Part shown: positions 674 through 49,355 of the stretch, piece by piece
Layout: the number at the start of each line of letters is the position of its first letter
How positions within the stretch are numbered: the first letter of the stretch is position 1
Assembly (NCBI RefSeq): GCF_023149135.1
Contig: NZ_JAIWJX010000002.1
Span: forward strand, 4,030,001-4,094,000
DNA length: 64,000 nucleotides
Direction of reading: 5' to 3'
Source: Fictibacillus marinisediminis
GTDB lineage: Bacteria; Bacillota; Bacilli; Bacillales; Fictibacillaceae
Made by a program: the position numbers and the translations under genes
Notes under the pieces: generated by a model
What the model was told of the DNA's origin: nothing
Database searches by the model: none
The model's input: the letters and a program-made list of their open reading frames with translations, nothing else

Positions 674-785
674 TCGAAACCGGTCAACCCTCATGTCGAA
701 AGGAATCCAATCGATAATAAAAATGCCCTTTTCGATAATAAATCCGGGTTTTCGATAATAAAAATAGAAAATCGATAATAAAAGC
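674..785. repeat. 21-bp phased array 1, core TCGATAATAAA
   Basis: TCGATAATAAA starts at 711, 732, 752 and 772, a step of 21, 20 and 20 bases. Two degenerate TCGAA copies sit upstream at 674 and 696. Read on the minus strand the core is TTTATTATCGAAAA plus 6-7 variable bases. It lies in the 3'-3' gap between ctaA and pgl, just past the ctaA terminator. No convincing gene is seen in 638-1021: the short open frames across it only translate the repeat, and the 20-base steps break any frame. The rest of this gap holds only the pgl terminator. Confidence 0.85.
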
Positions 786-977
786 CTTGGACAGTGGATG
801 GACAAGATAAATAAGCTTAAAATCCTCCTAAACATGCAGTAAAAAGGCTTCCCACACCACACAAAAGCCGAAATGCCATGGTTTTAAGCGCCATATAGAA
901 CTATTTACTTATTTATTCATCAAAAACACTTCAAATCTTTCAACAAAAGCTAAAAAAACGCCGCAAATGAGAAGAGC

Positions 978-1012
978 AAAATAAAACCACAGAAGGAACA
1001 CACCTTTTGTGG
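978..1012 (-). terminator. Probable intrinsic terminator of pgl
   Basis: On the minus strand CCACAAAAGG pairs with CCTTCTGTGG (one mismatch), followed by TTTTATTTT, just after the stop of the lactonase gene. Confidence 0.6.
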
Positions 1013-1021
1013 CACCTAACT

Positions 1022-2071
1022 TTATTTCACATGCAAAAACTTCACGCAAACCGGATAAGGAACGAACGCATCCGATTGTAAAAGCGTCAGTCTTCCTGTA
1101 TTTTCGTCTCTTGAAAACAGGACGAGGTTGCCGGACTCCTGATTGGAAGCCACGATGAATTTTCCGGAAGGATCGAGCATGAAATCACGCGGCCAGTTGC
1201 CTTCTGTCGGCGTGCGGTCGACAAAGGTCAGTTCGCCTGATTCATCCTTCACGCTCAATATCGCAATGCTGTTATGTCCGCGGTTACCTGCATACACAAA
1301 ACGGCCGTCGGAAGAAACATGAATCGCACTTCCTTGGTTGTTTTCCGTAAAATCTTCAGGAATGGTGGAGATGGACTGAAGGATCGAAAAGCTTCCATTT
1401 TCTTCGTTGTATGCCAATACGATGACTTCCGAGCTGAACTCGGTCATGAGGTAGGCGATTTTTCCGTTCGGATGGAACTCGAGATGCCTCGGACCGCTCC
1501 CAGGCTTCACAGACAGGCTGCTCACCTCTTTTAGCTCTCCGTTATAGAGCTGATATGTGATGAGCTTGTCGATTCCAAGATCAACGACCGCTACATATTT
1601 TTCATCCGGAGTAAAACCGGCATAGTGAGTATGCGGCTTTTCCTGTCTTTCATCGGGGCCAGAACCTTCATGCTGGATAACGGAAGTTGCAGGGTGCACG
1701 CCTTTTCCTTGTTCGACCGCCAAACGCTCAACCGTTCCTCTGTGATAGTTGGCCGTCAGTACGTTGCGGTTATCGCGATCCACACTGACATGGCAAGGAG
1801 AAGCGCCCTCTGTCAGCTGGCTGTTCAGCAGTGTCAGCCCTCTTGATTCATTGGTGATCGAGTAAGCAGCAACGCCTCCCATATCTCCGTCCTTTTTTAC
1901 GGCATAAAGATATTGATTGTCTTCACTGATCGTTAAGTATGTAGGATTCCCTAGTTGAGCTGCAGCTTTAATATCTGTAATTCTGCCTTCTTCTGTATCG
2001 AGCGTAAAAGAGTAGATACCTTTGCTTTCACCTTTAGTATAGGTTCCGATATAGCCTGAGTACTTTGTCAT
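1022..2071 (-). CDS. pgl: Lactonase-fold beta-propeller protein, 6-phosphogluconolactonase (YkgB/Pgl type)
   Basis: Cytosolic seven-bladed propeller of the lactonase family. Bacillus relatives hydrolyse 6-phosphogluconolactone in the oxidative pentose phosphate pathway. The 349-residue length and the opening YIGTYTKGESKGIYSF are typical, as are repeated blade motifs such as NPTYL, SPCHVSVD, SGPRHLEFHPNG and WPRDFMLDPSG. There is no signal peptide. The ATG is preceded by GAGGAG at proper spacing. The gene stands alone, convergent to ctaA. Family membership is clear. The exact substrate rests on homology, because members of this fold also act on other lactones. Confidence 0.85.
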   Translation of the reverse strand: MTKYSGYIGTYTKGESKGIYSFTLDTEEGRITDIKAAAQLGNPTYLTISEDNQYLYAVKKDGDMGGVAAYSITNESRGLTLLNSQLTEGASPCHVSVDRDNRNVLTANYHRGTVERLAVEQGKGVHPATSVIQHEGSGPDERQEKPHTHYAGFTPDEKYVAVVDLGIDKLITYQLYNGELKEVSSLSVKPGSGPRHLEFHPNGKIAYLMTEFSSEVIVLAYNEENGSFSILQSISTIPEDFTENNQGSAIHVSSDGRFVYAGNRGHNSIAILSVKDESGELTFVDRTPTEGNWPRDFMLDPSGKFIVASNQESGNLVLFSRDENTGRLTLLQSDAFVPYPVCVKFLHVK

Positions 2072-2159
2072 CGTGATGATCTCCTCTCTAAAATTCTGAT
2101 TTCTTAAATTTTAACACAAGCAGTCACAAAGAAACCTGTTCGAACCCTTATTGTTCGCG

Positions 2160-2196
2160 CAAAAAAAGCATGATATTCATTCCGAATACCATGCTT
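2160..2196 (-). terminator. Intrinsic terminator of the M28 peptidase gene
   Basis: A 12-bp stem (2166-2177 with 2185-2196, one wobble pair) is followed by a T-run on the minus strand, immediately after the peptidase stop codon. Confidence 0.8.
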
Positions 2197-2203
2197 GAAG
2201 GTT

Positions 2204-4327
2204 TTATTCGACCGCATCCTCTGCTGTCCAGGCTGCTTTTGTGAGCGATTTTTCCAGTTGTTTTACCGCTTTTTTGAAAGCTTCAGTGTCCTTTGCCTGC
2301 TGTGCTTCAACTAATGCAGGCAATGGCTGAGCAGCGTAACCGGTAGTGAGTCCCGGTGCAAAAATCTGATGCTTGAACCAGCTTCGGCTCGCGAGTCCCT
2401 GTTTGCTGATCAGGTCACGCTCCTGCTGGATCAATGCGGAGTTCAGCTGTTTCCATTGCTTCGGCTTCCCTTTTCCGCTGTTCAGAAGGCCTTGGCTGTA
2501 AGTTTCCAGTTGATTCGAGGCTTCTTCCCACTCTTTCGCCTTTGCTTTTAAGCCGCTGATATCCACACCAAGTGTTCCGCCTTTCTCCACGTCAGCCAAC
2601 AGTTTTTGCACAGATTCTGCATACTCGGAGTATTGGAACGGAAGAACTTGTGCGTTGGCCAGCCTCAGGGCCATTAGACCGGTAAAACGGCCCGCTGCAG
2701 CCTGATGTTTGTAGCCAGGGTCAAAAAACCGTTCCACAGAATCGGAGTTATCGTAGGCACTGTGATAAAGGCCACCCGCTGCACCAAAACCGACATCAGC
2801 AGAAGGCACACCGAGATGCTGAAGAAAGGCCGTATAGTCTGAGCCGCTGCCCAACAAGTCGATCTCTTGTTCTTTGCCGTCGTTTCTGACGAGCATGTCA
2901 TCATAAACGGACAGACCTGATCGCGGTTCTGTGACCTTTTTGGCCACATCATAGATCAAAGGATTTAGAGAAGGCACAGCACCGGCACCGAAAAACTGTC
3001 CGGCAATGCCGTCCATGTTAATGTATGCGACCGCATCCTTCGTCAGTTCCTTTTGGTGCTGTTCTGCGTATTCAGTGGAACCGAGCAGACCGTATTCTTC
3101 CCCATCCCAGCCTGCAAGAACAATCGTACGATCCGGGCGCCAGCCGTTTTCATACAGCTTGCCGAGGGAACGGGCCATCTCCATGATCGTGGACCAGCTG
3201 GAAATGTTATCACTTGCACCATACGTCCACGTGTCTCTGTGGCCGCCGATGATGATTTTTTCATTCGGATACTTGGCTCCTTTAAACGTCACCGTAATAT
3301 CATGAATCGGTTTTGTTTCATACTCAATATCAAGGTTAAGGCGAACCTTGGAAGCTTCATTTCCGAGGTGATATTTAAAAGGAAGGCCTCCCTGCCATGC
3401 TTTTGGCGCCTCTTTGCCGCCCATGGCCTGCAGCAGTCCTTGTGCCTCGCCGTAGGAGATCGGCGTTGTCGGGATTCTTGGCAGTGAATTGGCTTTATTG
3501 GCTTGGATTCGTTTCACACCGTCGACCGATGCTTTCCCAGGAGTCAGCGGATCGCCCGGATAGCGGTAGATATAGAGGATACTTCCGCGCTGGATGGCAT
3601 CTTTCGGGCGCCACGGTCCATCAGGGTAAACCGGCCCTTTGAGATAGCCGTCATCTTTCGGATCGGAATAGATTAAAACGCCTTTCGCTCCGTATTGGGA
3701 GGCAAGATCCGGCTTCACGCCGCGGAAGTTTTTGCCGTAGCGGACGATGACGATCTTATCTTTGACCGATACGCCCTGCATGGCCAGTTCTTTGAAGTCT
3801 TCAGGGGTTCCATAGTTGGCATACACAAGCTCTCCTTCCACATCTCCTGAAGGGGAATAGGCGTTATAGCCTTCTACGACTTCGTTTTTAAAAGGCGTGC
3901 CTTTCTTTAAATCTTCGGTGACTTTGAGTTCTCGCTGAAACGGTGCGGTCTGGGTGATGGAGATGCTGTTGGGGTGGGATAGGTAGACATCGTACGTGTG
4001 GACCTTCGGCTTCAGGCCTGCTTTCTTCAGTTCATCGAGCGCATATTGGACGCCGGCATCATTGCCCTTCGTGCCGACCAAAGCCGGACGTTTGCTAAGC
4101 GCCCTGCCATACTTTTTGATCGAGTCTTCCTTTACACCGTTCTGGAATTTCGTTTCAAACTCTGTCTGCCACTCGGACTTGTCCTTTGCAAAACCTGTCA
4201 GATCCTCCTCCTTCGTCTGTGCGGATGCATGTGTGAAAGGCAGAGCTGCGGATGCCAAAAGGGCAAGCGCCATACTGCTTGCCAGGTACTTCTTCCTAAG
4301 TGAGCCGGAATTTTTACGTTTTCCCAA
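2204..4327 (-). CDS. Secreted M28-family zinc peptidase with PA and transferrin-receptor-like dimerisation domains
   Basis: Predicted exported metallopeptidase of the glutamate carboxypeptidase II/transferrin receptor group, 707 residues. Residues 1-36 form a Sec signal peptide (KRK...KK, hydrophobic core, cleavage after ASA). A PA domain spans about 140-300. The M28 domain begins near 345. The di-zinc ligands are visible in order: H in GGHRDTW (~361), D in GASDN (~371), EE in GWDGEEYG (the first as general base), D in YINMDG and H in LYHSAYD. The last ~110 residues resemble the dimerisation domain. The start codon is TTG, with GGGAGG 8 bases upstream. It is monocistronic with its own terminator. 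Likely role is scavenging C-terminal residues from peptides outside the cell; the substrate is unknown. Confidence 0.88.
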   Translation of the reverse strand: MGKRKNSGSLRKKYLASSMALALLASAALPFTHASAQTKEEDLTGFAKDKSEWQTEFETKFQNGVKEDSIKKYGRALSKRPALVGTKGNDAGVQYALDELKKAGLKPKVHTYDVYLSHPNSISITQTAPFQRELKVTEDLKKGTPFKNEVVEGYNAYSPSGDVEGELVYANYGTPEDFKELAMQGVSVKDKIVIVRYGKNFRGVKPDLASQYGAKGVLIYSDPKDDGYLKGPVYPDGPWRPKDAIQRGSILYIYRYPGDPLTPGKASVDGVKRIQANKANSLPRIPTTPISYGEAQGLLQAMGGKEAPKAWQGGLPFKYHLGNEASKVRLNLDIEYETKPIHDITVTFKGAKYPNEKIIIGGHRDTWTYGASDNISSWSTIMEMARSLGKLYENGWRPDRTIVLAGWDGEEYGLLGSTEYAEQHQKELTKDAVAYINMDGIAGQFFGAGAVPSLNPLIYDVAKKVTEPRSGLSVYDDMLVRNDGKEQEIDLLGSGSDYTAFLQHLGVPSADVGFGAAGGLYHSAYDNSDSVERFFDPGYKHQAAAGRFTGLMALRLANAQVLPFQYSEYAESVQKLLADVEKGGTLGVDISGLKAKAKEWEEASNQLETYSQGLLNSGKGKPKQWKQLNSALIQQERDLISKQGLASRSWFKHQIFAPGLTTGYAAQPLPALVEAQQAKDTEAFKKAVKQLEKSLTKAAWTAEDAVE

Positions 4328-4443
4328 TCCTAAAACCTCCCTCGCTTTTTGACTATATTAGTAGATGTCTGTAAATTCAGTCAATTTATTACGTACGATT
4401 TGGAAAAAAATGAATCATTAGTCTTGCGAGGGGGTAAATGTTT

Positions 4444-4493
4444 GGTGCCAGGCACCGCTTTTTGACATATGTCAAAAGACGGTGCCTGGCACC
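4444..4493. repeat. Nested-palindrome terminator element, copy 1
   Basis: GGTGCCAGGCACC, then a core containing TTTTGACATATGTCAAAA, then GGTGCCTGGCACC. Each arm is almost self-complementary, the arms also pair with each other, and the core is a palindrome. It lies 8 bases past the stop of the minus-strand DapA-like gene and probably ends its transcript. Confidence 0.85.
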
Positions 4494-4501
4494 ATTTCAA
4501 G

Positions 4502-5548
4502 CTATTTGGATACATTCAGCTGCTTAACGAACGCATCATCATTTAGATGAGGATAGTCTCTGTACACCCTGTCAATTTCTGCAGACTGACCGGGGCTGAG
4601 TTTTTCTTGCTCAAGGAGACACCAGTTTCCCTGCAGCAGCCCTTGGCGTGCCAATACTTCATTGATGCCGGCAATACATCCTTTGAAACCATTGGCAGCA
4701 TCAAAGAATGCAGCATTGGCATCCGTGATTTCCTGGCTTCTCCGGAGAAGGGAAGCTGGAATAACTTCGTTGTTTCGGACTGATTTGATCTCATCAAACA
4801 GCTCTACAGCCCTTTTCGTCCAGACTGCCCAATGCCCGAGCAAACCGCCAGCAATTGATTTTCTTACCCTTTCACCGTCCACCATCACTTCATACGAAGT
4901 CAAAAGATCTTGCACAATATTATCATCATTTCCGGTATAGAGAGCAATCTCATCCCTCCGCTTGGACTGGCAGACTGCCCTGATGACATCCAATGTTTGG
5001 TACCTGTTGAAAGGGGCCATCTTGATCGCGTATACGTTTGGAATATCCGCAAATTCGCACCAGAAGTCATACGAAAAAACACGTCCACCAACAGTTGGCT
5101 GCAGGTAAAAACCGAAAACCGGGATAATTTCTGAAACTCTTTTTGTCCTTTCCAGCATTTCATCCTCACTTAAGTGGGAAAGCCCGCCAGGACTGAGAAG
5201 ACCCAAATCATAGCCTAGCTCTTTCGCCACGACCGCCTCTTCCTTTGCGTGCTCAGTCCCTCCGCAAATACCTGCAATTTTTATAAAAGGCTTCTGCAGC
5301 TCTCGGTGCTTCACTTCCTCGGCGGCCATACGCAGTACTTTTTCATAGAGATCAAACCGGGGATCTCTTATTTCAAATTGTGTCGTATGCACACCAACAG
5401 CTATACCGCCAGCCCCGGCATCCATATAATAGTTTGTCAGTCTCCTTTGGCTCTTTTCATCCAGCTTTCTATTTTTATGAAGTGCCAAGGGATGTGCAGG
5501 AATTACGGTTCCATCCAATAAAAGCTCTTTGATCTCGGGCTTCAGCAT
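4502..5548 (-). CDS. DapA/NAL-superfamily aldolase-like protein
   Basis: A 348-residue TIM-barrel protein of the dihydrodipicolinate synthase/N-acetylneuraminate lyase superfamily, which forms a Schiff base with a keto acid through a barrel Lys. The likely Lys is in NVYAIKMAPFNRY, the equivalent strand-6 position. The glycine-rich GAGGIAVGVHTTQF near the N-terminus matches the family's strand-2 region. It is about 50 residues longer than DapA itself, so lysine biosynthesis is unlikely. The start codon directly abuts the stop of the upstream epimerase gene (TAAATG), so the two are translationally coupled. A joint role in converting a sugar acid or keto acid is an inference; the substrate is unknown. 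Confidence 0.75.
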   Translation of the reverse strand: MLKPEIKELLLDGTVIPAHPLALHKNRKLDEKSQRRLTNYYMDAGAGGIAVGVHTTQFEIRDPRFDLYEKVLRMAAEEVKHRELQKPFIKIAGICGGTEHAKEEAVVAKELGYDLGLLSPGGLSHLSEDEMLERTKRVSEIIPVFGFYLQPTVGGRVFSYDFWCEFADIPNVYAIKMAPFNRYQTLDVIRAVCQSKRRDEIALYTGNDDNIVQDLLTSYEVMVDGERVRKSIAGGLLGHWAVWTKRAVELFDEIKSVRNNEVIPASLLRRSQEITDANAAFFDAANGFKGCIAGINEVLARQGLLQGNWCLLEQEKLSPGQSAEIDRVYRDYPHLNDDAFVKQLNVSK

Positions 5549-6565
5549 TTAAAAAGCCCCTTGCCTTTCCTGAAAATGGGTCGGTTTATTTATCGTTTGT
5601 CCATCCGCTTCCACCCATTCCGCTGTCCACTCAATCATCGTATTCAGCGGTGTTTTTGGATAACCAAATACCTGATGGGCTTTAGAGGAATTATTAATCA
5701 ATGCGGTTGGCTGCTCCTCACCGAAAAAAGTAACTTGTTTATTGAACCGCTCACCAAACTGCCGGGCCAGCCACCGGATGGAAACCGTTTCAGGCCCAGT
5801 AATGTTTAAAATAGCCGGTGGGCTTTCACTAACATGCAGCGACCGGAGAGCATATTCGTTTGCATCTCCCTGCCAGATCACATTCACATGGCCCATCGTG
5901 ACATCGACTGGATTTCCCTGATAGACTTGCTTGGCAATTTCCAGAAGGACACCGTATTTCATATCAATCGCATAATTCAGTCTGAAAAGGGTGACCTGTG
6001 TACCGTTTTTCCGGGAAAAATACGAGAATATTCTTTCTCTGCCAAGGCACGATTGCGCGTATTCGCCGACGGGATTGACCGGGTGATGCTCGTCACACCC
6101 TCCATGGGCCAGGGGCACGAGAGGATAAACATTTCCCGTTGAGAACACGACATGGCGGGAGTTCGGAAACTTCTCAGCTACCCGGCCCGGAAGGTAAGTA
6201 TTCATGGCCCATGTGTAAAATTCATTGCCTGTCGTGCCAAATTTATGTCCCGCCATATAAATGATATTTCTCACGTCAGGCAGCCTCTGAAGGTCTTCCT
6301 CCTTTAACAGGTCCGCACTGATCGTCTCTATACCGGCCTCTTCCAACTCTGTCCGCAAGGTTCCTGATGAAAAGCGGGACACACCGATCACCCGCTTTGA
6401 AATATTGCCTTGACCGAGAGCACGTTTGGCGAGCTTTGCCAGTGTCGGGCCCATCTTCCCTCCTACTCCAAGAATCATAATGTCTCCATCCAAGTTTCCT
6501 AAGTCCCTGATCAAGTGTTCAGATGGCCTTGTCATTACTTCTTCAAGTTCATGTAACGTTTGCAT
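5549..6565 (-). CDS. NAD(P)-dependent epimerase/dehydratase-family protein
   Basis: Extended short-chain dehydrogenase-like protein of 338 residues. The Rossmann motif is ILGVGGKMGPTLAKLAKRA near the N-terminus (GxGGxxG) and the NAD-binding loop reads IIYMAGHKFG. STGNVYPL stands where the family has its Ser and Tyr, but the usual YxxxK is not clear: EYAQSC has a Gln-Ser in place of the Lys region, so catalysis may be altered. The start was set at ATG 6565, where GAGGTG stands 6-8 bases upstream; an in-frame extension to 6610 lacks a ribosome site. It is first in a two-gene operon with the DapA-like aldolase. The pathway is unknown. Confidence 0.75.
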   Translation of the reverse strand: MQTLHELEEVMTRPSEHLIRDLGNLDGDIMILGVGGKMGPTLAKLAKRALGQGNISKRVIGVSRFSSGTLRTELEEAGIETISADLLKEEDLQRLPDVRNIIYMAGHKFGTTGNEFYTWAMNTYLPGRVAEKFPNSRHVVFSTGNVYPLVPLAHGGCDEHHPVNPVGEYAQSCLGRERIFSYFSRKNGTQVTLFRLNYAIDMKYGVLLEIAKQVYQGNPVDVTMGHVNVIWQGDANEYALRSLHVSESPPAILNITGPETVSIRWLARQFGERFNKQVTFFGEEQPTALINNSSKAHQVFGYPKTPLNTMIEWTAEWVEADGQTINKPTHFQERQGAF

Positions 6566-6722
6566 CGTTTCACCTCGTTTTTTTATTCGTTCATCACTTC
6601 TACACCTCAATGATAAACCGCTTTCTACTGCAAAAAAACGACGTAAATCTGTCTATAAATCTCTTTTGGTGCCGACTAAAAAAATGAACCCCTTTGAGAA
6701 ATGGGATCCATTTTAGAACTTA

Positions 6723-7451
6723 TTAGTTTTTCAGGAAGAAGCACAGCGCCCTTGGCAGATCGTCCTTCCAGAAGATCCAGCGGTGTTCTTCGTCTTCCAC
6801 ATGATAATCAAGGGATAGCTCTTTCTCCCCAAACACCTTCATCATGCTTTTGTTGCCGTCATAAATATGGGCAATTTCCCCGGTAACCGGCGACTTAAAG
6901 TTATTCTCCCGCTCACCGACGACCTGATAGATCTTCCAGTTCGGCTGCTGGATCTGACGCCGTGCATCTTCCGCCATCTCGACATCAAATGCGGCTGACT
7001 GCAGCATGAGGTGAGACCATATCTCCGGCTTTTTCATGGCGAGGTAAAGTGAGATGACTCCGGCAAGCGAATCACCGAGTGATCCCATTTTGACCACGTT
7101 CATATTGATGGCCTTCAGCTTCTGCTGCACGTCCGGCAGCACTTCGTTATAAAAGAAGTCGGTAAATGCCTCAAAGTGCTCGCCGTCCGGATGATACACC
7201 TCTCTTCGCTGTGATGGAGATCCCGGGCTTACCGTTACCATGACGAGGTTCTTGGCGAGTTCAGGCTTTTCCTCCAGCAGCTTTTCAAACGTTTCCTGGA
7301 GTCCTCCGAGTTTCATGTAATAATAACCGTCCTGCACGAAGAGAACCTGCACATCCCCTTCCTGAAGCTGATCAGAAAACAGCCACTTTACGTCAATCTC
7401 GCGGTTTAACTGGCTGCTGTGCATTCGATTTTCGTTGATTAATAGACTAAT
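6723..7451 (-). CDS. Esterase-family alpha/beta hydrolase (YjcH/enterochelin esterase-like), probable ATT start
   Basis: Putative esterase with an alpha/beta-hydrolase fold and about 242 residues. The nucleophile elbow is degenerate but recognisable: MGSLGDSLAGVISLYLAM, equivalent to GDSLAG in Bacillus esterase-like proteins. The acid/His end reads DEEHRWIFWKDDLPRAL. The start is odd: a strong AGGAGG ends 7 bases before an ATT codon at 7451-7449, and starting there matches the family's N-terminal length. The first ATG (7424) and an upstream TTG (7541) have no ribosome binding site. It could also be an older start lost by mutation. No signal peptide is seen and the substrate is unknown. Confidence 0.7.
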   Translation of the reverse strand: MSLLINENRMHSSQLNREIDVKWLFSDQLQEGDVQVLFVQDGYYYMKLGGLQETFEKLLEEKPELAKNLVMVTVSPGSPSQRREVYHPDGEHFEAFTDFFYNEVLPDVQQKLKAINMNVVKMGSLGDSLAGVISLYLAMKKPEIWSHLMLQSAAFDVEMAEDARRQIQQPNWKIYQVVGERENNFKSPVTGEIAHIYDGNKSMMKVFGEKELSLDYHVEDEEHRWIFWKDDLPRALCFFLKN

Positions 7452-7693
7452 GGGTAACCCTCCTGACTGACTGCTCTGTTTTATCCAAGAATTATCATAG
7501 CATGAAAGGGCCTCGCAGTTAAATTGCCCTATGAAAAACAATTCAGGACAGGCAACAATGAGTTTTTTGAAAAACGTGGTGAAAAATTCGCTGTTTCTTG
7601 TTTTACAGACAGGATGAAGCTGCTAAAGGGGGAAAAACATCCTAATTCATCATAAAATTCGCGGCTGAGAGCGGAAATGGGTTCCGAGCCCAT

Positions 7694-7745
7694 ATATTAT
7701 TGATTTCTACCCATTTATTATCGAAAACGGCGCTTTTATTATCGA
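7694..7745. repeat. 21-bp phased array 2, core TTATTATCGA
   Basis: ATATTATTGA at 7694, then TTATTATCGA at 7715 and 7736, an exact 21-base step. This is the same core as array 1 in the opposite orientation on the plus strand. It lies 26 bases past the terminator of the MFS exporter gene in its direction of transcription. The remainder of 7452-7814 has no gene that I can support. Confidence 0.75.
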
Positions 7746-7770
7746 TTCACTCCATTCCTTCTTCAAACAA

Positions 7771-7806
7771 AGAAAAGCAGCCGTGCTTAACTGTAAACAC
7801 GGCTGT
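7771..7806 (-). terminator. Intrinsic terminator of the DHA2 exporter gene
   Basis: On the minus strand CAGCCGTG pairs with CACGGCTG around a 12-base loop, followed by a short T-rich tract, immediately after the exporter stop codon. Confidence 0.75.
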
Positions 7807-7814
7807 CTTTCGAA

Positions 7815-28022: not shown

Positions 28023-28110
28023 TCATTTGATCGCGTAAAAAGCTGGTTGAGCGGGAAGTTTTCGAGGGCGAGAGCTGAGTTTCGATCTGAGAATGGGTCC
28101 TCCAAGCGTT

Positions 28111-28202
28111 TTATTTTCAAAAAATCAGCTTTATGTTCAAAAAACATACTTTTTTATTCAAAAATCCGAGTTTATGTTCAAAAACCGCCTTTTTATTTTC
28201 AA
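28111..28202. repeat. 21-bp phased array 3, core TTTATGTTCAAAAA
   Basis: Five units with the core TTTAT[GT]TTCAAAAA; the TTCA element is at 28117, 28137, 28158, 28178 and 28199, steps of 20, 21, 20 and 21. It lies between the TauE terminator and the aprX terminator (3'-3' gap). The open frames across it translate only repeat, and the 20-base steps change the frame. Nothing else is seen in 27953-28313 beyond the two terminators. Confidence 0.85.
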
Positions 28203-28272
28203 TTTGTTGATACGCGACACATTTCGACGAGTTTTGACACATTCATTTCCGCAACATCCACCACCCAACCCC

Positions 28273-37559: not shown

Positions 37560-37653
37560 TTTACTGGCGAGAATGAGAGATTTACTGGCCAAATCGTCAT
37601 ATTTACTGGCCAAAATCATAAAATACTGGCCAGAACAGAGGATTTACTCGCCA
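37560..37653. repeat. 21-bp phased array 4, core TTTACTGGCCAAAA
   Basis: Five units starting at 37560, 37581, 37602, 37622 and 37643 (steps 21, 21, 20, 21) with core TTTACTGGCCAAA and variants TTTACTGGCG and TTTACTCGCC. It lies in the 3'-3' gap after the oxidase terminator. Confidence 0.85.
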
Positions 37654-37723
37654 AACCGGAATTATGGTAAACTAGCGGTCGGCCTTTGTCACTCTATCCC
37701 TCACAACCCTTCAAAACAACACT

Positions 37724-39171: not shown

Positions 39172-39280
39172 CCATTCCCCCTCTTTTCTATTTCCCTAAA
39201 AATACCATATGTTCATCAATAATGCTTCTGTTTTTTTGAGCGTGGGGATGATGGTTCGCCAGTTAGCGTAATCCAGTTTT

Positions 39281-39396
39281 GGCGGGTAAATGTGCAATTC
39301 TGGCGGATAAAATTCTCATTTCGGCGGGTAAATCTGTCGTTTCCGCGGGTAAACACTGCAAAACAGCGGGTAAACCCGTATTTCCCGCCAGATAAA
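39281..39396. repeat. 21-bp phased array 5, core TTTACCCGCCAAAA on the minus strand
   Basis: Plus-strand GGCGGGTAAA-type units start at 39281, 39302, 39323, 39344 and 39365, with a degenerate sixth near 39387; the steps are 21 (last 22). It immediately follows the terminator of the quinone-reductase gene. The core is related to array 4 but inverted. Confidence 0.88.
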
Positions 39397-40909: not shown

Positions 40910-40912
40910 TTG

Positions 40913-40954: not shown

Positions 40955-40965
40955 GAAAGGGATGG

Positions 40966-41406: not shown

Positions 41407-41422
41407 AAATTTTTACCTGTTC

Positions 41423-41438
41423 ATTTGTATATACAAAC
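41423..41438 (+). promoter_or_regulatory. MarR operator 2, before the SDR gene
   Basis: ATTTGTATATACAAAC contains the perfect 14-bp palindrome TTTGTATATACAAA. It matches operator 1 at 13 of 16 positions, and lies 22 bases before the SDR start codon. Confidence 0.7.
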
Positions 41439-41460
41439 ATTTTTCAAGGAGGTTGGATGG

Positions 41461-42108: not shown

Positions 42109-42130
42109 AAAAAACCTAGGAGGAAATCAA

Positions 42131-42655: not shown

Positions 42656-42662
42656 TTGATAT

Positions 42663-42720
42663 GGTGCCAGGCACCCCTTTTTGACATATGTCAAAGAGCG
42701 GTGCCTGGCACCGTTTTTTT
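42663..42720. repeat. Nested-palindrome terminator element, copy 3
   Basis: GGTGCCAGGCACC, core TTTTTGACATATGTCAAA, GGTGCCTGGCACC, then seven T's on the plus strand. It sits between convergent genes and overlaps the gerKB stop region. Confidence 0.88.
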
Positions 42721-43831
42721 AGTTTGCCTTTTGATTTTTACTTTTATTCTTATTTTTAAAATACGCCACGATGAAGACAATGATAGGGAAAATGTATTGA
42801 AAAGGAAGATGCAATAAGAGCGGAACGATCCCGATTCCTTCTTTAATATGCTCAGAATAGTTGCTTGCCATTGTCATGGACATAAACAGTACGACAAGCC
42901 CGAGCGGATAACTCAGCCTGGAAGCCGGTTTTACGTTGAAGAGGTTCGCCGTCCCTATTACAGCCACGTACAAAAAGAGACTTATCTTAAAAAAACCTCC
43001 CACGACTAAAGCAATCATGAAATAGACGTCCAGGCGCTCCAAAAAATCGGCGACCTGGATGGTTTGGATGGTGCTCAGCAAAGGGAATTGAGACAGTGCT
43101 GTAAGATTCACACCAAGGATGCTGATATTGAACATCATGACCAGAGCCAGCGACAGCCCACTGACCACAGTGGCAAGCACACTGGCGTTCCTCAGCTTTT
43201 TGGCATCCTCCACATAAGGAAAAATCATCGTAAACACAAGGAGTTCTCCAAAGGGAAAATACATGGACTCTTTTAGGGTGGTTTTAATAATCGGCTTCCA
43301 GCCGTTTTCTAGCACAGGCTGCAGGTTGTGGATATCAATTACTCCAGAGAATAATACGAGGATCACACCAGATCCTGCCAACAAATAAATGAAGACCAAA
43401 AAGAGTTCTCCTGTTCTCGCCAATACTTCAATTCCTTTTGAGACGGTATAGATAATGACCAGGATCATTAAGGTGTTGGCGATTAAAAGGGGTGTTTCAA
43501 TGTAAGCAAATGTCAGCAGCATGGTGCCAAAATCCCGCAGGACCCTTCCCGCGATATAAAGGTTATACAGCATGTACAAATAGGCAATCGGACGCCCGAT
43601 TCCTTTGCCTACAACCTTTTGAAGGTATTCTGTCGGCAGCATGTCCGGGTAAAAACAATACAGCCGGTAACAGATGAAAAAAAGCCCTAATCCCCCAAGC
43701 ATCCCAAGCAGGATAACGATCCACGCATCCTGCTTGGCTTCGATCCCCACCGCTACAAGCAGGGCACTGCCCAGCTCAAATAATAGAACAAGGGCAAACA
43801 GCTGATATGGTGTTATTCTTGCTTTTTCCAT
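42719..43831 (-). CDS. gerKB: Spore germination receptor B subunit (GerKB-like permease family)
   Basis: A 370-residue inner spore membrane protein of the GerAB/endospore germination permease family (APC superfamily), with about ten helices. It starts ARITPYQLFALVLLFELGSA and contains YLYMLYNLYIAGRVLRDF and FPYVEDAKKLRNA. It is thought to bind nutrient germinants. The start was set at ATG 43831 with AAGGGGGG; the frame to 43861 overlaps the C-subunit stop region. It is third in the operon. The A-C-B order matches B. subtilis gerK rather than gerA, so the symbol is by order and similarity. Confidence 0.8.
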   Translation of the reverse strand: MEKARITPYQLFALVLLFELGSALLVAVGIEAKQDAWIVILLGMLGGLGLFFICYRLYCFYPDMLPTEYLQKVVGKGIGRPIAYLYMLYNLYIAGRVLRDFGTMLLTFAYIETPLLIANTLMILVIIYTVSKGIEVLARTGELFLVFIYLLAGSGVILVLFSGVIDIHNLQPVLENGWKPIIKTTLKESMYFPFGELLVFTMIFPYVEDAKKLRNASVLATVVSGLSLALVMMFNISILGVNLTALSQFPLLSTIQTIQVADFLERLDVYFMIALVVGGFFKISLFLYVAVIGTANLFNVKPASRLSYPLGLVVLFMSMTMASNYSEHIKEGIGIVPLLLHLPFQYIFPIIVFIVAYFKNKNKSKNQKAN

Positions 43832-43850
43832 TGCTTTGCCCCCCTTCTTT

Positions 43851-45065
43851 TTATTTCTCATCTGTGAGATAAGAATTGTTCCTCAGAGCGGTTTGGCGAA
43901 CGAAGGCATGGACCTTCACCTTAATGTTTGCTTTCGAAAAATAATCCTCCTCCCATTTTCCCGAAATCCTTTTCCATGTGTCAGGCTGCGAACGATGGAC
44001 CGTATCCCCGAAGCCGAATATATCGGTTTTTTTATGTTGTGCCTCTTTTATGGCGCTTCTAATCTCTGCAGCGATCTCCTTTTCAAAACCTTTCTCCAAT
44101 TGTGCGATCACATGCGGGTCTTTAAGATTGACAGGAACATCCGTTCCCCCAATATTTCCTTCGGTTTGTACACTGACAGTAAGCTGGGTACTTCCTTTCT
44201 TAACGGAAGAAGAAATCTTCGTGTTCTGCCGGAGTACTTCAAAAGCAATCGCTTCCTTCCTCCCCTTTTTGTTTATATTGACTTCTGTTTTTTGAGTCTT
44301 GTTCATCACCCAGACGGCTCCTTTGGCTTTCCTCCCATAGAGCCAGCCCTTAAGCTTTCCGCCTTTAAATAAAGCCAGGCCATCAATTTGGGGAGCTGCC
44401 TGGGGTGTTGACTGCGTTATGTTCTCAACGCGTTCTCCGATCGCACTAGAACCCTTTAAATAAAACCCGCTGATGACGGGCTGTTTTCCGTCATCCAATA
44501 AATCTTTTACCACATCCAATAAGGTTACATTGATCGCCTGCCCCCATACTCTTTCGGAGAACCTCAACAGTTTGATCACTTTGTTCGCTGGAACTTTATC
44601 GATAGCTGTCAGTGTTTTTACAATATCACTTGCCTTTGTTTTATGAGCGATCACGATGGTTGCTGTTTTCCGGAACGTCGCATCCCGGTCAAAGGCATCC
44701 AGGATGGGATTCAACCCTTTTTTCTTCGCCAATTTGTCACTGATGACAAGCAGATTCGCATGGGCATAATAGAGGTTTCGCGAAACTTTGGTAGACATGC
44801 GGCGGCTTAACTCATCCATATTATCCCCTGTTGTCGAATAGACGGAGACCGCATTTCCGCTGCCCCCACCTCCCCCTTGGAACCCTCCTGTCACATTGCC
44901 TGGATTAACAAATTGAAAGGTGCCTAAATATCTTCCTTTTTTATCAAGATCAATGCCCACCGCAGAGACGAGGGCCAGATCGTTCAGCTCTTTTTTGCTC
45001 CAGCAGCCTGAAAGCAATGAAAGCAGCAGTCCCACTGTGATAAAAACGATCACGCTACGTCTCAT
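43851..45065 (-). CDS. gerKC: Spore germination receptor C subunit lipoprotein (GerKC-like)
   Basis: A 404-residue lipoprotein (lipobox LSGC, Cys21; then WSKKELNDLALVSAVGID, typical of the Ger(x)C family). The stretch NPGNVTGGFQGGGGGSG closely resembles GerKC of B. subtilis, as does the end FGFGDTVHRSQPDTWKR. It is anchored to the outer face of the inner spore membrane as part of the receptor complex. The start at 45065 has AAGGTGAT and overlaps the A-subunit gene by 11 bases. An alternative ATG at 45080 has a weaker site. Confidence 0.82.
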   Translation of the reverse strand: MRRSVIVFITVGLLLSLLSGCWSKKELNDLALVSAVGIDLDKKGRYLGTFQFVNPGNVTGGFQGGGGGSGNAVSVYSTTGDNMDELSRRMSTKVSRNLYYAHANLLVISDKLAKKKGLNPILDAFDRDATFRKTATIVIAHKTKASDIVKTLTAIDKVPANKVIKLLRFSERVWGQAINVTLLDVVKDLLDDGKQPVISGFYLKGSSAIGERVENITQSTPQAAPQIDGLALFKGGKLKGWLYGRKAKGAVWVMNKTQKTEVNINKKGRKEAIAFEVLRQNTKISSSVKKGSTQLTVSVQTEGNIGGTDVPVNLKDPHVIAQLEKGFEKEIAAEIRSAIKEAQHKKTDIFGFGDTVHRSQPDTWKRISGKWEEDYFSKANIKVKVHAFVRQTALRNNSYLTDEK

Positions 45066-46680
45066 TTTGATCACCTTCATTTTCTGTAACCAGAATCCGT
45101 CTCTGTTCCGGCTCCGGTTTGCTCATATTGTCTCCATCACGCTGCTGGTTGGGTCCGCTGATGTAGGCCGGCCGTTTCGTTCCCGTCCACATGGGAGCCC
45201 GAATAAACGTGTCTCCTACCTCTGCAGGGATGAATGGAGCAAGAGGAGACATGTAAGGAACGCCGAAAGATCTTAGGCTGCATAAATGAACGACCAGCAT
45301 GATAAAGACTAAGATCATGCCATAAAAACCAAAGGTAGCGGCACTGATCATAAAAATAAAACGAAGCAGACGGGCCGATATCGCGATCGCAATGGACGGA
45401 GTGGCAAAACTGGCGATCGCGGTAATTGCTACGATAATGACCATGGCAGGCGATACGACTCCCGCCTGAACCGCTGCCTGTCCGATAACAAGGGCACCGA
45501 CGATGGAGATGGCAGACCCAATCGCTTTAGGCATTCGGATTCCTGCTTCCCTCAGGATCTCAAACGTAACTTCCATGATGAGTGCTTCCACAAAACTCGG
45601 GAAAGGAACGGCTTCCCGCTGTGCGGCGATGGCAATCAAAAGCTGAGTCGGAATCATCTCCTGATGGAAGGTCGTTGCGGCAATATAGGTCGCTGGTCCG
45701 ATGAGCGAGATAAAAAAGACCAGAACCCGTAATAATCTTATAGCGGTGGAGATGTAAAAACGTTCGGTGTAATCTTCAATCGACTGAAAGAACTGCACAA
45801 ATACGGCAGGTCCGAGAAGAACGAACGGTGTTCCGTTAACGAAGACTGCAAAGCGCCCTTCCAATAGATTGCCCGCAACCGTATCCGGACGCTCGGAATA
45901 GTACAGGGTAGGAAATGCTGTAATGGATTGGTCTTCAATGAGCTGTTCGATATACCCGGACTCCAGAACTCCATCGATATCGATTTTATTAAGCCGTTTA
46001 CGAAGCTCAACAATCACCTCATCCTTCGCTATTCCTTTGATATACATGATGGTGACGTTGGTTTTGGTCACTTTTCCAATTTTCATGGATTCGGTCCATA
46101 GCAGGGGATTCTGAATCAGTCTTCGGACCATGGATATGTTCGTTTCTATATATTCTGTAAATCCTTCTCTTGAACCTCGGATCGCCCGCTGTGTACTCGG
46201 TTCTTCAATGGAACGTTTTTCTCCGCCTTCTGTACATGCCCGTACGGCCGAATAATAGCCATCGACAAAAATAATCGTGTCCCCCGCCATGAGAGATTCG
46301 AACAAGACAGACCAATCATCAACCTGTTCTATGTTTCCAAGAGGCATGATTTCTTCCACCATCGCTGCCAGATTTTCCTGATCTGCCACATGAGCACCTG
46401 GTTTCAGGATCGATTCGATCAAAAGATCCTGAATGGTCTGCTGGTCCGTTATCCCTTTCACATAAACAATAGCGGTTCGGGCTTGAAACCGGGGAGAATG
46501 GTTAAACGTTCGAATGATAATCTCACTGCTGTTCCCTGTCTGTGTTTTAATGATCTCAATATTCTCATCAAGTACAGGAGAAATGGGAAAAGAATTAGGC
46601 TTTTTTGGCTTCTCATGCTCTTGAGAGGGTTGATTCTTTTGAAGTTTTTTCTTTTTGAAAAAAGAAGGCATAAGAGGCAC
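45055..46680 (-). CDS. gerKA: Spore germination receptor A subunit (GerKA-like)
   Basis: A 541-residue GerA-family protein. It has a ~280-residue hydrophilic N-terminal domain (ARTAIVYVKGITDQQTIQDLL, SLMAGDTIIFVDGYYSAV) followed by about five helices (QEMIPTQLLIAIAAQREAVPFPSFVEALIME) and a short tail. The oligomeric A subunit is thought to form the ion channel that opens on germination. The start is GTG 46680 with AAAGG close upstream; ATG 46671 is possible. It begins the operon, and no clear sigma-G promoter was identified by eye. Confidence 0.85.
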   Translation of the reverse strand: MPLMPSFFKKKKLQKNQPSQEHEKPKKPNSFPISPVLDENIEIIKTQTGNSSEIIIRTFNHSPRFQARTAIVYVKGITDQQTIQDLLIESILKPGAHVADQENLAAMVEEIMPLGNIEQVDDWSVLFESLMAGDTIIFVDGYYSAVRACTEGGEKRSIEEPSTQRAIRGSREGFTEYIETNISMVRRLIQNPLLWTESMKIGKVTKTNVTIMYIKGIAKDEVIVELRKRLNKIDIDGVLESGYIEQLIEDQSITAFPTLYYSERPDTVAGNLLEGRFAVFVNGTPFVLLGPAVFVQFFQSIEDYTERFYISTAIRLLRVLVFFISLIGPATYIAATTFHQEMIPTQLLIAIAAQREAVPFPSFVEALIMEVTFEILREAGIRMPKAIGSAISIVGALVIGQAAVQAGVVSPAMVIIVAITAIASFATPSIAIAISARLLRFIFMISAATFGFYGMILVFIMLVVHLCSLRSFGVPYMSPLAPFIPAEVGDTFIRAPMWTGTKRPAYISGPNQQRDGDNMSKPEPEQRRILVTENEGDQNET

Positions 46681-46796
46681 AATACCTTTCTACGTGATTT
46701 TCTTTTAGGGTTTCCCTGGCTCCTCTTCCTTATTCTGTCCTCTCTTAATGGATAGCGTTCATTTTGGAGATACTAGGGGCGGAGTGTGATGGAACG

Positions 46797-47027
46797 ATGA
46801 AAATTCTGGGTATTACCCTATCGATGTTTATACTGTTGACATGTTTCTCTCTGACTTTGGATATCTACGAAGGATTTGATATGAAAACAGCGATCCTTAA
46901 TGCCTTGTCTCCTTTCAAAGTAATGGAACTCATAGAAATCTGTGTTGTGGTGTTATTGATTGCTTTATTTTTTGCCCAATCGGTCTTCCAGCTGTTCACG
47001 AAGTTCAAAAGCCAAAGGAGATCATAG
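46797..47027 (+). CDS. Small two-helix membrane protein, candidate germination-receptor D subunit
   Basis: A 76-residue protein with two predicted membrane helices (ILGITLSMFILLTCFSLTL and ELIEICVVVLLIALFFAQS) and a basic tail (KFKSQRRS). It is divergent to the gerK-like operon, 116 bases away. Small two-helix proteins encoded in or beside GerA-type operons of B. subtilis and B. megaterium are termed D proteins and modulate germination; size, topology and place match. The start at 46797 was chosen over 46764 by the helix and length, though its ribosome site (GGAGTG) is distant. Identity as a D protein is an inference. Confidence 0.6.
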   Translation: MKILGITLSMFILLTCFSLTLDIYEGFDMKTAILNALSPFKVMELIEICVVVLLIALFFAQSVFQLFTKFKSQRRS

Positions 47028-47041
47028 AGCAATAAAAAAAC

Positions 47042-47091
47042 GGTGCCAGGCACTCGCTTTTGACAGATGTCAAAACGCAGTGCCTGGCACC
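47042..47091. repeat. Nested-palindrome terminator element, copy 4
   Basis: Arms GGTGCCAGGCACT and AGTGCCTGGCACC: the C to T and G to A changes compensate each other. The centre has one mismatch (TGACAGATGTCA). It lies between the convergent D-protein and alkD-like genes. Confidence 0.87.
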
Positions 47092-47102
47092 GTTTCACCG
47101 TT

Positions 47103-47771
47103 CTAGGCTAACTGTATATTCTTAAGGGCTTCTTTTCTGCTCAAGGGCTGGAGTTCTGTGGAGTTGACGAACTCGACAACGTAATCGGGGTTGGTCTTGG
47201 CATATTCCCTCAATGCCCAGCCGATCGCTTTGCGGATAAAGAACTCTTTGTTCTCCTTCTGCTGCTCAATAACGTATTTTAAGATGTCTTCGTTCGTATC
47301 TTTTTTATAGCCGAGCTGATAAAGAATCGCGGTCCGGTTCAGCCACATGTTCGGTGAATGAATCCATTTCTCCACCAATTCCTGTTCCCGATGCTTGAAC
47401 GTTTGTATGTAATGTCCCATATGGTGCTTGGCGATATGATCCACCGTATCCCACCACGACTTTTCAGTGATCGTGTTCTCTAAAGCTTTAAGATCGTCTT
47501 CCTGCATGCCCTTCTTCAGCTTGTCCACAAAAAACATGCCCATGTACTGCATTTCCCGTTCTCTGTAGTTCCAGCATTTCTTCGTCATTTCGGGGATGCT
47601 CATCTCAGGCAGCCCGTACATTTTCACATGATTCTTCATAACCTCTTTCATAATCGGTGACTTCAAGCCATAGAAGGTAAATTTATTCTTCATGTAAGAC
47701 TGCATCTTTACCGCATCGGCCGGATTCTGCCTGCTTCGTATTTCTTCATGCAAGGTTTCAAGGTACGTCAT
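47103..47771 (-). CDS. AlkD-like DNA alkylation repair protein
   Basis: A 222-residue all-helical HEAT-like repeat protein. The signature region KSWWDTVDHIAKHHMG (Trp and Asp of the active cleft) and IHSPNMWLNRTAILYQLGY match the AlkD group of DNA glycosylases, which excise cationic alkylated bases without flipping. FFIRKAIGWALREYAKTNP is also typical. The start was set at ATG 47771, where GGAG lies six bases upstream; earlier ATG/GTG options lack spacing. It is flanked on both sides by nested-palindrome elements. Confidence 0.87.
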   Translation of the reverse strand: MTYLETLHEEIRSRQNPADAVKMQSYMKNKFTFYGLKSPIMKEVMKNHVKMYGLPEMSIPEMTKKCWNYREREMQYMGMFFVDKLKKGMQEDDLKALENTITEKSWWDTVDHIAKHHMGHYIQTFKHREQELVEKWIHSPNMWLNRTAILYQLGYKKDTNEDILKYVIEQQKENKEFFIRKAIGWALREYAKTNPDYVVEFVNSTELQPLSRKEALKNIQLA

Positions 47772-47822
47772 CGTCATCTCCGTTAACCCCCTCAACAGTA
47801 GTTCCCTAAATTATAACAGAAA

Positions 47823-47874
47823 GGGTGCCAGGCACCAGCTTTTGACATATGTCAAAACGCGGTGCCTGGCACCC
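47823..47874. repeat. Nested-palindrome terminator element, copy 5
   Basis: GGGTGCCAGGCACC, a core with TTTTGACATATGTCAAAA, and GGTGCCTGGCACCC. It begins 4 bases past the DUF4405 stop on the minus strand. Confidence 0.87.
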
Positions 47875-47878
47875 TCCA

Positions 47879-48832
47879 TTAACTCAACCTCTTCTTTCTT
47901 CTCCCCAAAAACTTTCCGCCATAGTAAGCCAGCACGGCGAAGACCGCCATGACCCCGGTATAGGTAGCAATGACAGACAGGGCGCTCACATCGCCCCCGA
48001 AGCCATGCTCCCGGCCTCCAAAGTCTTCCCGTTCGCGTCCGCCTCCCATATCATCGTCACCATCGAATCCAGAAGGCCGTTCTCCCTTGCTGAACGATCC
48101 CGGTGCCGGCCTTCCCGATTGACCGCCATCACTCGTTCCGCTTGCCTGCTCTCCAGGACGCGGTCCGCCGAATTCCTGTCCGCCGCCGTCTCCATCCATG
48201 TCAGGCCTCTGCCCGAATGCCCCCTTGCCACCTTCAGCCATCGCCGGCTGCCCGCCGCTTGAAAAGATGCCGAACACACTCACCGACCGTGAAATAAACC
48301 CTGTTTCAAAGATCTGAAAGACACCAAACAGCAGAACAACTGCCATCGCTCCATTAGCCGTCCAGCCCATCCATTGTTTCGGTTCCTTAATGGAAAAGAT
48401 GCGGTTCCAGATGTTGATGACCCATTTCCAATGCATGCCGACATGAATTCCCACAATGATCAAGGTCAAGAACGATAACGAAATGTGCAGCATCTTAAAC
48501 CATCCTTCATTTCCTATATTAGTATTGGGAAAGAGCACCCTTGAAACAAAAATTCCGCTTACCATAATGGTGGTCATACATACTAACAGTACAAGATTTA
48601 ATCCATAGCTAAACCGTGTTTTTCCTGGCAATTTCTTATCGAATAGTTTCAAAGAAACATTCTTGATCCATCGCCAGTTCAAGGCCATGTGAGTCAGAAA
48701 TGCAACCCCGATCACCGTTCCTGCCACTTCGTGAAAAGTCATCCCGCCAAACACTCTCTTGTTAAACAGCAAAACAAACGTAATACTCATCGCCAAGTCC
48801 AAACCAAACTTTACATAATTGTTCTTTTTCAT
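47879..48832 (-). CDS. DUF4405 membrane protein, cytochrome b561-like, with Gly/Asp-rich loop
   Basis: A 317-residue membrane protein with five to six helices. Two similar halves each carry His pairs: FHEVAGTVIGVAFLTHMALNW and LHISLSFLTLIIVGIHVGMHW, which look like bis-His heme b sites of DUF4405/b561-type proteins. Residues ~208-287 are a low-complexity loop rich in Gly, Asp, Glu and Arg (e.g. GDGGGQEFGGPRPGEQ, GGGREREDFGG), followed by one last helix and a basic tail. A GGAGTG site precedes the ATG. An electron-transfer role is inferred from the His pattern; the function is unknown. Confidence 0.75.
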   Translation of the reverse strand: MKKNNYVKFGLDLAMSITFVLLFNKRVFGGMTFHEVAGTVIGVAFLTHMALNWRWIKNVSLKLFDKKLPGKTRFSYGLNLVLLVCMTTIMVSGIFVSRVLFPNTNIGNEGWFKMLHISLSFLTLIIVGIHVGMHWKWVINIWNRIFSIKEPKQWMGWTANGAMAVVLLFGVFQIFETGFISRSVSVFGIFSSGGQPAMAEGGKGAFGQRPDMDGDGGGQEFGGPRPGEQASGTSDGGQSGRPAPGSFSKGERPSGFDGDDDMGGGREREDFGGREHGFGGDVSALSVIATYTGVMAVFAVLAYYGGKFLGRRKKRLS

Positions 48833-48914
48833 CTTTCATCACTCCTGTCCATTTCTTCCTAGGAGTAACTCTAAACGGGTTTCCTTAAGATAACCTTAAT
48901 TTTGAAAAATTTGG

Positions 48915-48943
48915 TTGCTTCCTTTACCTTTCTTCTATATAAT
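48915..48943 (+). promoter_or_regulatory. Sigma-A promoter of the T-box/argS unit
   Basis: TTGCTT (48915-48920), 17-base spacer, TATAAT (48938-48943); transcription would start just before the T-box stem I. Confidence 0.7.
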
Positions 48944-48962
48944 CACAAAAAACAATACCTTT

Positions 48963-49195
48963 TCGATGAGGAAGAGAGTAATCCTGCATGCAGAACAAAG
49001 CGAGTCAGGGACGGTGAAAGCCTGACGGATGCTGTACGATGAACCGCACTTCTGAGGAGCCAGCCTAAACAGTAATCCGTATGGCGGCCGGGGAGAACCC
49101 CGTTATTAGCATTAAGTCGGTTCTTTATTGAACAATAAGAGTGGTACCGCGGGTCATACATCCCGTCTCTAATTTTAGAGGCGGGATTTTTTTAT
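48963..49195 (+). ncRNA. T-box leader, arginine specifier (CGC), upstream of argS
   Basis: Shows stem I with AGTA (48977-48980) opposite GAA at 49041-49043, and the GGTGAAAG distal-loop motif. The specifier CGC (Arg) is at 49045-49047. The T-box sequence GTGGTACCGCGG is at 49141-49152, and the terminator (TCCCGTCTCT with AGAGGCGGGA, then T's) is at 49161-49193. Uncharged tRNA-Arg should stabilise the antiterminator and switch on argS. Confidence 0.9.
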
Positions 49196-49266
49196 TTTTG
49201 CTGGCTGGATCGTTCTTCTGCAATAAACGCGTCGGATTCTGCCGAAAGGTGTCGCGTATAAACCGG

Positions 49267-49355
49267 TTGAAAATAAAGGAGTGGATTTTGAACATAAATC
49301 AGGTTTTTTGAACATAAATCGGCATTTTTGAACATAAACCCGTAAATTTGAAAAT
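49267..49355. repeat. 21-bp phased array 6, core TTGAACATAAA
   Basis: TTGAA elements at 49267, 49288, 49308, 49328 and 49348 (steps 21, 20, 20, 20). It is the reverse complement of the array 3 core. It lies 74 bases past the T-box terminator and 190 bases before argS, that is, inside the argS leader. The remaining 49356-49548 shows nothing but an AT-rich leader and the argS ribosome site. Confidence 0.85.

Follow-up and report, generated by a model that had tools for sequence, protein, structure and literature searches.

Several described systems place short repeats in tandem or in many copies between genes. STAR elements of Staphylococcus aureus are intergenic tandem arrays in which a short core stays constant and the spacers vary; their core is GC-rich, their spacers are longer than those considered here, and they are not known to show two-turn phasing. 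Plasmid iterons are direct repeats of ∼20 to 22 bp with protein bound in register, and the ends of Tn7-like elements carry several ∼22-bp transposase sites in tandem. For repetitive extragenic palindromic (REP) elements, a topological or architectural role has been discussed (PMC1525189, in the portion consulted), and A-tract clusters of ∼100 bp have been proposed at the apexes of nucleoid loops (Tolstorukov et al. 2005, as cited in the portion of PMC4761138 consulted). Here, we analyze a stretch of 64,000 nucleotides from Fictibacillus marinisediminis (contig NZ_JAIWJX010000002.1, positions 4,030,001 to 4,094,000), hereafter the window, for which an original prediction made from the letters alone had claimed six intergenic arrays of a phased repeat with three cores. 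The reading we prefer, at just short of an even chance, is that these arrays are chromosomal extragenic elements of mobile origin that have been retained as curved arrays of sites for a putative DNA-binding protein.

Direct reading of the window bore out the six phased arrays and their three cores as stated, and the step, given as 20 to 22 and mostly 20 or 21, was read as 20 or 21. A lag scan that uses no motif and sums the best 10-base self-match at lags 20 to 22 returned the six loci as the top six of 25 listed peaks, with scores of 7.62, 7.00, 6.97, 6.95, 6.51, and 5.94 against 5.63 for the top other peak. Tandem Repeats Finder (TRF) detected four of the six. The array at 7.7 kb is marginal alone (5.94 versus the 5.63 background peak) and is credible because its two clear units carry the core of array 1. 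Two of the predicted loci were refined: at 674 to 785, four clear units occupy 711 to 785 and the first 37 bases are a leader with no units, and at 7694 to 7745 two clear units with the array 1 core were confirmed in an array that is weak by itself. The arrays and their leaders are as follows.

674 to 710, plus strand: array 1 leader, no repeat units, GTCGAA word present twice (GCGTCGAA, ATGTCGAA)
711 to 785, plus strand: array 1, four units TTTTCGATAATAAA, steps 21/20/20
7689 to 7745, minus strand: array 2, weak by itself; TTTTCGATAATAAA clear in two units, a third degenerate
28110 to 28205, minus strand: array 3, class A, five units, TTTTTGAACATAAA internal and TTGAAAATAAA terminal on both sides, steps 20/21
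28206 to 28250, minus strand: class A leader of array 3, GTCAAAACTC-GTCGAAATGT-GTCGCGTATCAAC, GTC words at a 10-bp step
37560 to 37655, minus strand: array 4 of class B, with five units (TTTTGGCCAGTAAA or a variant)
37656 to 37677, minus strand: class B leader of array 4, CTAGTTTACCATAATTCCGG
39259 to 39276, plus strand: diverged class B leader of array 5, CCAGTTAGCGTAATCCAG
39279 to 39376, plus strand: array 5 of class B, step 21, with five units (TTTTGGCGGGTAAA or a variant); adjoins the terminator-like hairpin of a minus-strand dehydrogenase gene
49221 to 49266, plus strand: class A leader of array 6, GTCGGATTCT-GCCGAAAGGT-GTCGCGTATAAACCGG
49267 to 49360, plus strand: array 6, class A, five units, TTTTTGAACATAAAT internal and TTGAAAATAAA terminal on both sides

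To extend the count, we searched 864 kb of this genome, made up of the window and 40 further 20-kb stretches (20 of them chosen around pattern hits), for chains of three or more units with 10 or more matches out of 12. Lags 19 to 23 gave 22 chains versus 0 in one Markov-shuffled copy, control lags centered on 15, 27, and 33 gave 3, 1, and 0, and a table of lags 14 to 33 had its maximum at 20 to 22. These counts answer the concern, raised with the original prediction, that such steps might occur at chance in AT-rich DNA. Certain chains sit within coding sequence (e.g. L031, L038); the 20 stretches placed regardless of arrays (400 kb) contained 11 chains, 2 coding and 9 intergenic, and therefore roughly 100 intergenic arrays are expected per 4.57-Mb genome. 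The arrays of the window belong to a large chromosome-wide family.

The units of an array are direct repeats in a single orientation and are not palindromic. A layout of TTTT-N6-TAAA plus 6 to 7 bases, stepped by 20/21 and with differing six-base cores, was found in several related genera: the cores are TGAACA, GGCGGG, and GGACAG in the window's genome (G000), TGATAA in Rossellomorea-type genomes (among them G100, G101, and G102), CGCCAA in Mesobacillus and Cytobacillus, GGCAAA/G in Bacillus sp. DNRA2 and B. marasmi, and GCACGA and GATCGA in G011. The predicted single architecture with interchangeable cores was thus recovered, with many cores set in a common frame. Of 20 arrays with at least four units in the window's genome, 12 fit the frame at 7 or more of its 8 letters versus 1.5 expected, as did 15/15 in G011. 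Arrays from named genomes were drawn by a TTTA...AAAA pattern, among the matches listed, and their frame score is biased for that reason. G102 also holds a second core family beside TGATAA, GATAATCTTYSAG, with a period of ∼21 (L375 C1:797137, 798881; L404 C2:102537). A promoter reading of TTTTTGATAATA, in which a −35/−10 pair 16 to 17 bp apart was noted by eye between units, was rejected as only that core fits.

In this frame, the centers of the T run and the AAA lie ∼10.5 bp apart, as do those of the AAA and the next T run. The AAA/TTT power at half the step was 1.16 to 1.83, versus 0.20 to 0.36 for column-permuted units (four genomes), and the median A/T-tract peaks fell at 10.2 to 10.4 bp in G000, G100, G101, and G011; the predicted two-helical-turn step with in-phase A-tracts is supported. 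Individual arrays of these four genomes were phased at p<0.05 in 77/98 cases (coding chains kept in), and 58/83 arrays of named loci passed, among the matches listed. Phasing was weaker elsewhere (G008 2/5, G013 0/3, and L250 1/2 at very low power). Like the described A-tract clusters, the arrays have A/T tracts phased at ∼10.5 bp over ∼100 bp, and curvature is what such a sequence leads one to expect. Many steps in Rossellomorea-type genomes alternate between 20 and 21, and spacers are most alike at lag two (0.573, n=110; 0.46 at lag one, n=174; 0.434 at lag three, n=50), which points to a 41-bp dimer.

To compare arrays with their surroundings over the same divergence, G100 arrays were matched to G101 arrays by their flanks, and 12 of 16 listed pairs were used, nine anchored on both flanks and three chosen with one anchor; core positions were labeled from either pair member. 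Cores were identical at 676/695 positions (97.3%) and spacers at 379/447 (84.8%), while the adjacent DNA reached 73 to 77% (837/1148 in the 50-bp flanks and 861/1115 in the next 50 bp). Core identity exceeded that of spacer and flank in 12/12 pairs, and the nine doubly anchored pairs gave 500/515, 290/336, 669/879, and 688/844 for core, spacer, flank, and next 50 bp. Letter by letter, the core changed at G 1/57, A 0/58, T 1/58, A 0/58, A 0/57, T 3/58, and A 0/59, the T-run letters at 2 to 3 of 57 to 59 each, and the variable letter at 4/58. Because array and flank have had equal divergence time, the core is constrained, and purifying selection appears to act on it in the Rossellomorea-type lineage. 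Gene conversion is an alternative to selection, yet locus-specific spacers persist.

Two further explanations meet this result directly. If intrinsic curvature were all that mattered, with phased A-tracts doing the work and the core incidental, the strong in-phase A/T tracts would be explained, and ∼100-bp A-tract clusters are a nucleoid feature described in the consulted portion of PMC4761138; however, core letters outside the T run are conserved at least as well as the T run, and arrays with little A-tract signal exist (G001), so that we give pure curvature little credence. Neutral tandem repeats produced by replication slippage are less credible still, indeed very improbable. Some neighboring units are identical or nearly so including their spacers (e.g. 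L084, L107, L134), so that local duplication does occur, but slippage does not predict a constrained core and is contradicted for the Rossellomorea core, nor does it predict a 20 to 21 period with differing cores in several genomes or a bias to 3′-ends.

Certain classes carry a conserved leader or conserved ends and behave as inserted elements. In the class A leader, GTC words mostly recur every 10 bp (6/14 copies under strict spacing); the terminal unit is usually TTGAAAATAAA, with TTGAACATAAA internally, and class A copies have a common leader and partly common spacers. Used as a query, the class A element of the argS leader matched 15 more places in its own genome (some partial) and 4 in G104, and 14 of the 16 own-genome places were aligned. 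The word TGTCGAA occurred 6 times in sense and 0 times in antisense near arrays, with 0.5 expected (25 arrays, from 27 with low overlap after two rich in AT had been dropped by eye), and 5 times upstream and 0 times downstream of 109 other arrays. We take this word to resemble a Spo0A box; its copies are not independent and it is a lead only. On separate named contigs, TTTTGTCGAAT/A, presumably also similar to a Spo0A box, precedes arrays (L077 ∼4405, L082 ∼4580, L159 ∼4258, L192:3269), and Mesobacillus-type arrays (L101, L107, L110, L114) have CTGGAAA...TTTCCAG, a possible hairpin, immediately before the first unit. In sf1, a Rossellomorea subfamily defined by its right end, the best flanking stem consists of GGTAT-type inverted ends 15 to 21 bp from both array edges (21/29 copies); no inverted ends were visible by eye in class A or G011 arrays.

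Array 6 lies with a T-box on one side and the arginyl-tRNA synthetase gene on the other:

48957 to 49173, plus strand: T-box leader of argS
49549 to 51237, plus strand: argS (arginyl-tRNA synthetase); the inserted element stands between this gene and the T-box

In G104, G004, and G001, the T-box is ∼45 to 60 bp from argS and no array was found between them; in the window, ∼375 bp including array 6 separate the two. The argS array is an insertion that these three relatives lack. At the 28-kb locus, one relic unit and the leader remain in G005. No array was found adjoining the orthologue of the gene at 37.7 to 38.8 kb in G003, G004, or G005, and near it G002 has only one array, with a different core and ∼1 kb off. 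Elements thus come and go, and at least nine to twelve are old and constrained in Rossellomorea-type genomes. A separate dispersed repeat, GCTCGCTTTCCGCGGGGCG or its complement, was seen at 56186 and ∼33370 of the window and in G104 (L410 ∼1320).

The placement of arrays was assessed over intergenic regions of at least 150 bp pooled from five genomes, with genes called by a codon-score script and orthologous arrays not independent. Regions with arrays (n=120) were 35 convergent, 74 tandem, and 11 divergent, and those without (n=560) were 68, 351, and 141, an enrichment between convergent genes (odds ratio 3.0, p=1e-5) and a depletion between divergent ones (odds ratio 0.30, p=6e-5). This is the placement of REP elements and bacterial interspersed mosaic elements (BIMEs), extragenic and at gene ends or between convergent genes. 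Relative to tandem neighbor genes, 29 arrays lay on the same strand and 29 on the opposite one across the five genomes (5 same and 2 opposite in G000; 2 and 6 in G011). Within G100 to G102, sf1 gave 1 same and 17 opposite, and another subfamily with the same core gave 21 same and 4 opposite. One core therefore serves in both orientations to genes and each subfamily keeps its own.

These strand counts bear on whether the arrays act as RNA, through a 3′ untranslated region structure, a small-RNA sponge, or the protein-binding RNA tail that the original prediction had named. Arrays near gene ends, the one between T-box and argS, and the preferred strand of each Rossellomorea subfamily (1/18 and 21/25 on the same strand) are in line with such an element. 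Against it stand the use of one core on both strands relative to genes (29 versus 29 over five genomes), sf1 flank stems that are no longer with their own partner (6.38) than with others' (6.30), the T-box as the only Rfam hit in the window at gathering thresholds, and a 10.5-bp phase without evident meaning in single-stranded RNA; covariation was not found in the flank stems of sf1, the one subfamily examined. The RNA tail has lost ground accordingly, and we regard an RNA-level element as improbable.

By local guanine-cytosine (GC) skew, 25/26 sf1 arrays were on the lagging side and 23/30 of the other subfamily on the leading side (arrays with |skew| under 0.03 set aside, and the sf1-like L352 counted as other). 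On C1 of G102, TGATAA arrays of one subfamily keep one orientation per zone, 10/10 at 729 to 885k and 9/9 at 967 to 1300k, in the fetched stretches (L374-L376, L392-L401) spanning 150 to 330 kb; they are absent from the fully fetched 887 to 966k. Replication polarity was rejected as a function: the two G102 zones have the same sign of skew, yet their arrays change orientation with the subfamily, and G000 is mixed (9 lagging, 10 leading). Given these two observations and the non-independence of orthologous clusters, we read the polarity as local same-orientation spread.

Such spread is also expected of selfish miniature elements, whose repeats would be transposase-type binding sites without host function. 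The dispersal of class A with its leader and spacers, the block insertion at argS, the inverted ends of sf1, the same-orientation clusters, and the fixed strand of each subfamily all favor them. Conversely, orthologous cores are far better conserved than adjacent DNA, which is unexpected for dead copies, and the listed G011 arrays mostly have unrelated flanks (exceptions L195 and L204). No target-site duplication was noticed by eye in sf1 flanks, transposase was not searched for, and two array queries against plasmids and one against phages gave no match. Purely selfish elements are, in our judgment, unlikely, though deserving of serious attention.

Among relatives, a pattern search of the kind proposed with the prediction stood apart from its control in its strict form. 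Within the order, the three-unit pattern with TAWA ends was present in 10 of 199 genomes, the own genome among them, and a slightly stricter version with TAAA ends in the own genome alone among 121 of a class draw, each with a reversed control of 0. Exact tandem pairs of one core numbered 52 in G100, 78 in G101, 22 in G102, and 0 in G103 (control 0 in all four). Samples of 100 kb contained 2 lag-21 chains in G005, 1 in G004 (coding-like), 5 in G008, 3 in G013, 2 in G006, 0 in G036 and G038, and 3 in G011, two of these being low-complexity and coding-like; other lags in the eight samples gave mostly 0 and up to 5 in G011. Outside Firmicutes, a Rufibacter contig (L090:3873) and two Flavobacterium contigs (L111:3694, L117:1223) have near-identical 21-bp arrays of like layout, GCGAAAACGAACYTTTTATAA.

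Under our preferred reading of retained site arrays, the element would measure ∼75 to 125 bp, and intrinsic curvature is expected of its DNA; it would carry a short site, in most families TTTT-(C/G/T)GNNNR-TAAA, as ∼4 to 6 direct repeats. Since the sites are spaced by two helical turns, all would face one side, and the anatomy fits several protein copies on one face of curved DNA. Whole elements, each with the leader or ends of its class, would have been inserted or copied, for the most part shortly downstream of genes. A putative sequence-specific DNA-binding protein might then fill the sites side by side, probably cooperatively, and bend or wrap the DNA, thereby favoring retention. Its role would most likely be architectural or topological at the ends of transcription units, comparable to REP/BIME, and the position of arrays after genes and their avoidance of promoter-only regions fit such a role. 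Periodicity, A/T phasing, core constraint in one lineage, and the 3′-end preference are demonstrated here, as are the use of one core in both gene orientations and the insertion at argS. Of the options first offered, iterated protein sites or phased bends are those that are supported.

Several points weigh against this reading. The DNA-binding protein it invokes is putative, and several cores in one genome are unexplained by a single protein; they would call for several proteins or for one that reads mainly the frame. The test of core constraint is one genome pair with one core. The four G000 arrays compared are missing or reduced in relatives and hence need not be functional. G001, of the same genus, has GC-rich 21-bp arrays without A-tracts (L250), so curvature is not universal. 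Of ten arrays in G005, G008, G013, and G006, relatives sampled regardless of arrays, 3 fit the frame at 7/8 letters, with 0.6 expected, and 100 kb of G011 has no lag-21 excess (3 versus 5 at lag 14). In its looser two-unit form, the pattern search was no better than its control, with matches in 26/100 genomes versus 29/100 for the reversed pattern, although totals were 100 versus 58, of which 47 versus 18 were in G011. As to placement, G100 shows no convergent excess (4/20 with arrays, 4/24 without), and orthologous arrays are not independent in that test. Lastly, the strong strand bias within subfamilies is unpredicted by a purely strand-blind role of the DNA. In G001, the arrays at L250:1-3800 have ∼10 units of TGCGCGCGAACGGAGTGCCTC and relatives at period 21, in several places around one gene.

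A bolder form of the protein-site reading, tentative and rather doubtful, is a chromosome-organizing system of Bacillaceae. Dozens to ∼100 curved phased arrays per genome at transcription-unit ends would be served by a putative protein family that switches its six-base target between lineages. The core would then change jointly at many loci, with no change to the frame TTTT-BGNNNR-TAAA or to the phasing (20/21, as a 41-bp dimer). In this target-switching form, the arrays are a proposed bacterial counterpart to a rapidly co-evolving satellite and its binding protein.

Our literature search turned up no description of a helically phased family with interchangeable cores and core selection, in agreement with the original prediction, which named no described family of this form; for six core strings, the papers among the matches listed treat other subjects, going by their titles. 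STAR elements share the short constant core and variable spacers and differ in their GC-rich core, spacing, and phasing. Iterons belong to one replication origin beside rep, unlike the present arrays, which are chromosomal, with dozens of copies dispersed across a 4.35-Mb contig. Compared with Tn7-like ends, the present arrays have no established inverted partner, and in one lineage selection has retained their cores. CRISPR repeats are at least 23 bp with unique spacers over 20 bp, compared with a core of 14 and a spacer of 6 to 7 here. REP/BIME are likewise extragenic, in many copies, and frequent between convergent genes; REPs are palindromic, whereas the present units are direct, helically phased, and varied in core on one frame. 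Binding of gyrase, integration host factor (IHF), or DNA polymerase I (Pol I) is a further trait of REP/BIME. For A-tract clusters, the consulted portion of PMC4761138 describes no conserved-core tandem arrays or dispersed repeat family. Taken together, the phased arrays point to an undescribed DNA-binding system, one that offers a concrete route to what determines supercoiling and nucleoid structure at Bacillaceae gene ends and in which the replacement of one binding word by another over many loci can be traced from genus to genus. Extragenic repeats of the interspersed kind are known; what appears to be new here is the helical phase, the interchangeable cores on a constant frame, and the measurable selection on the core.

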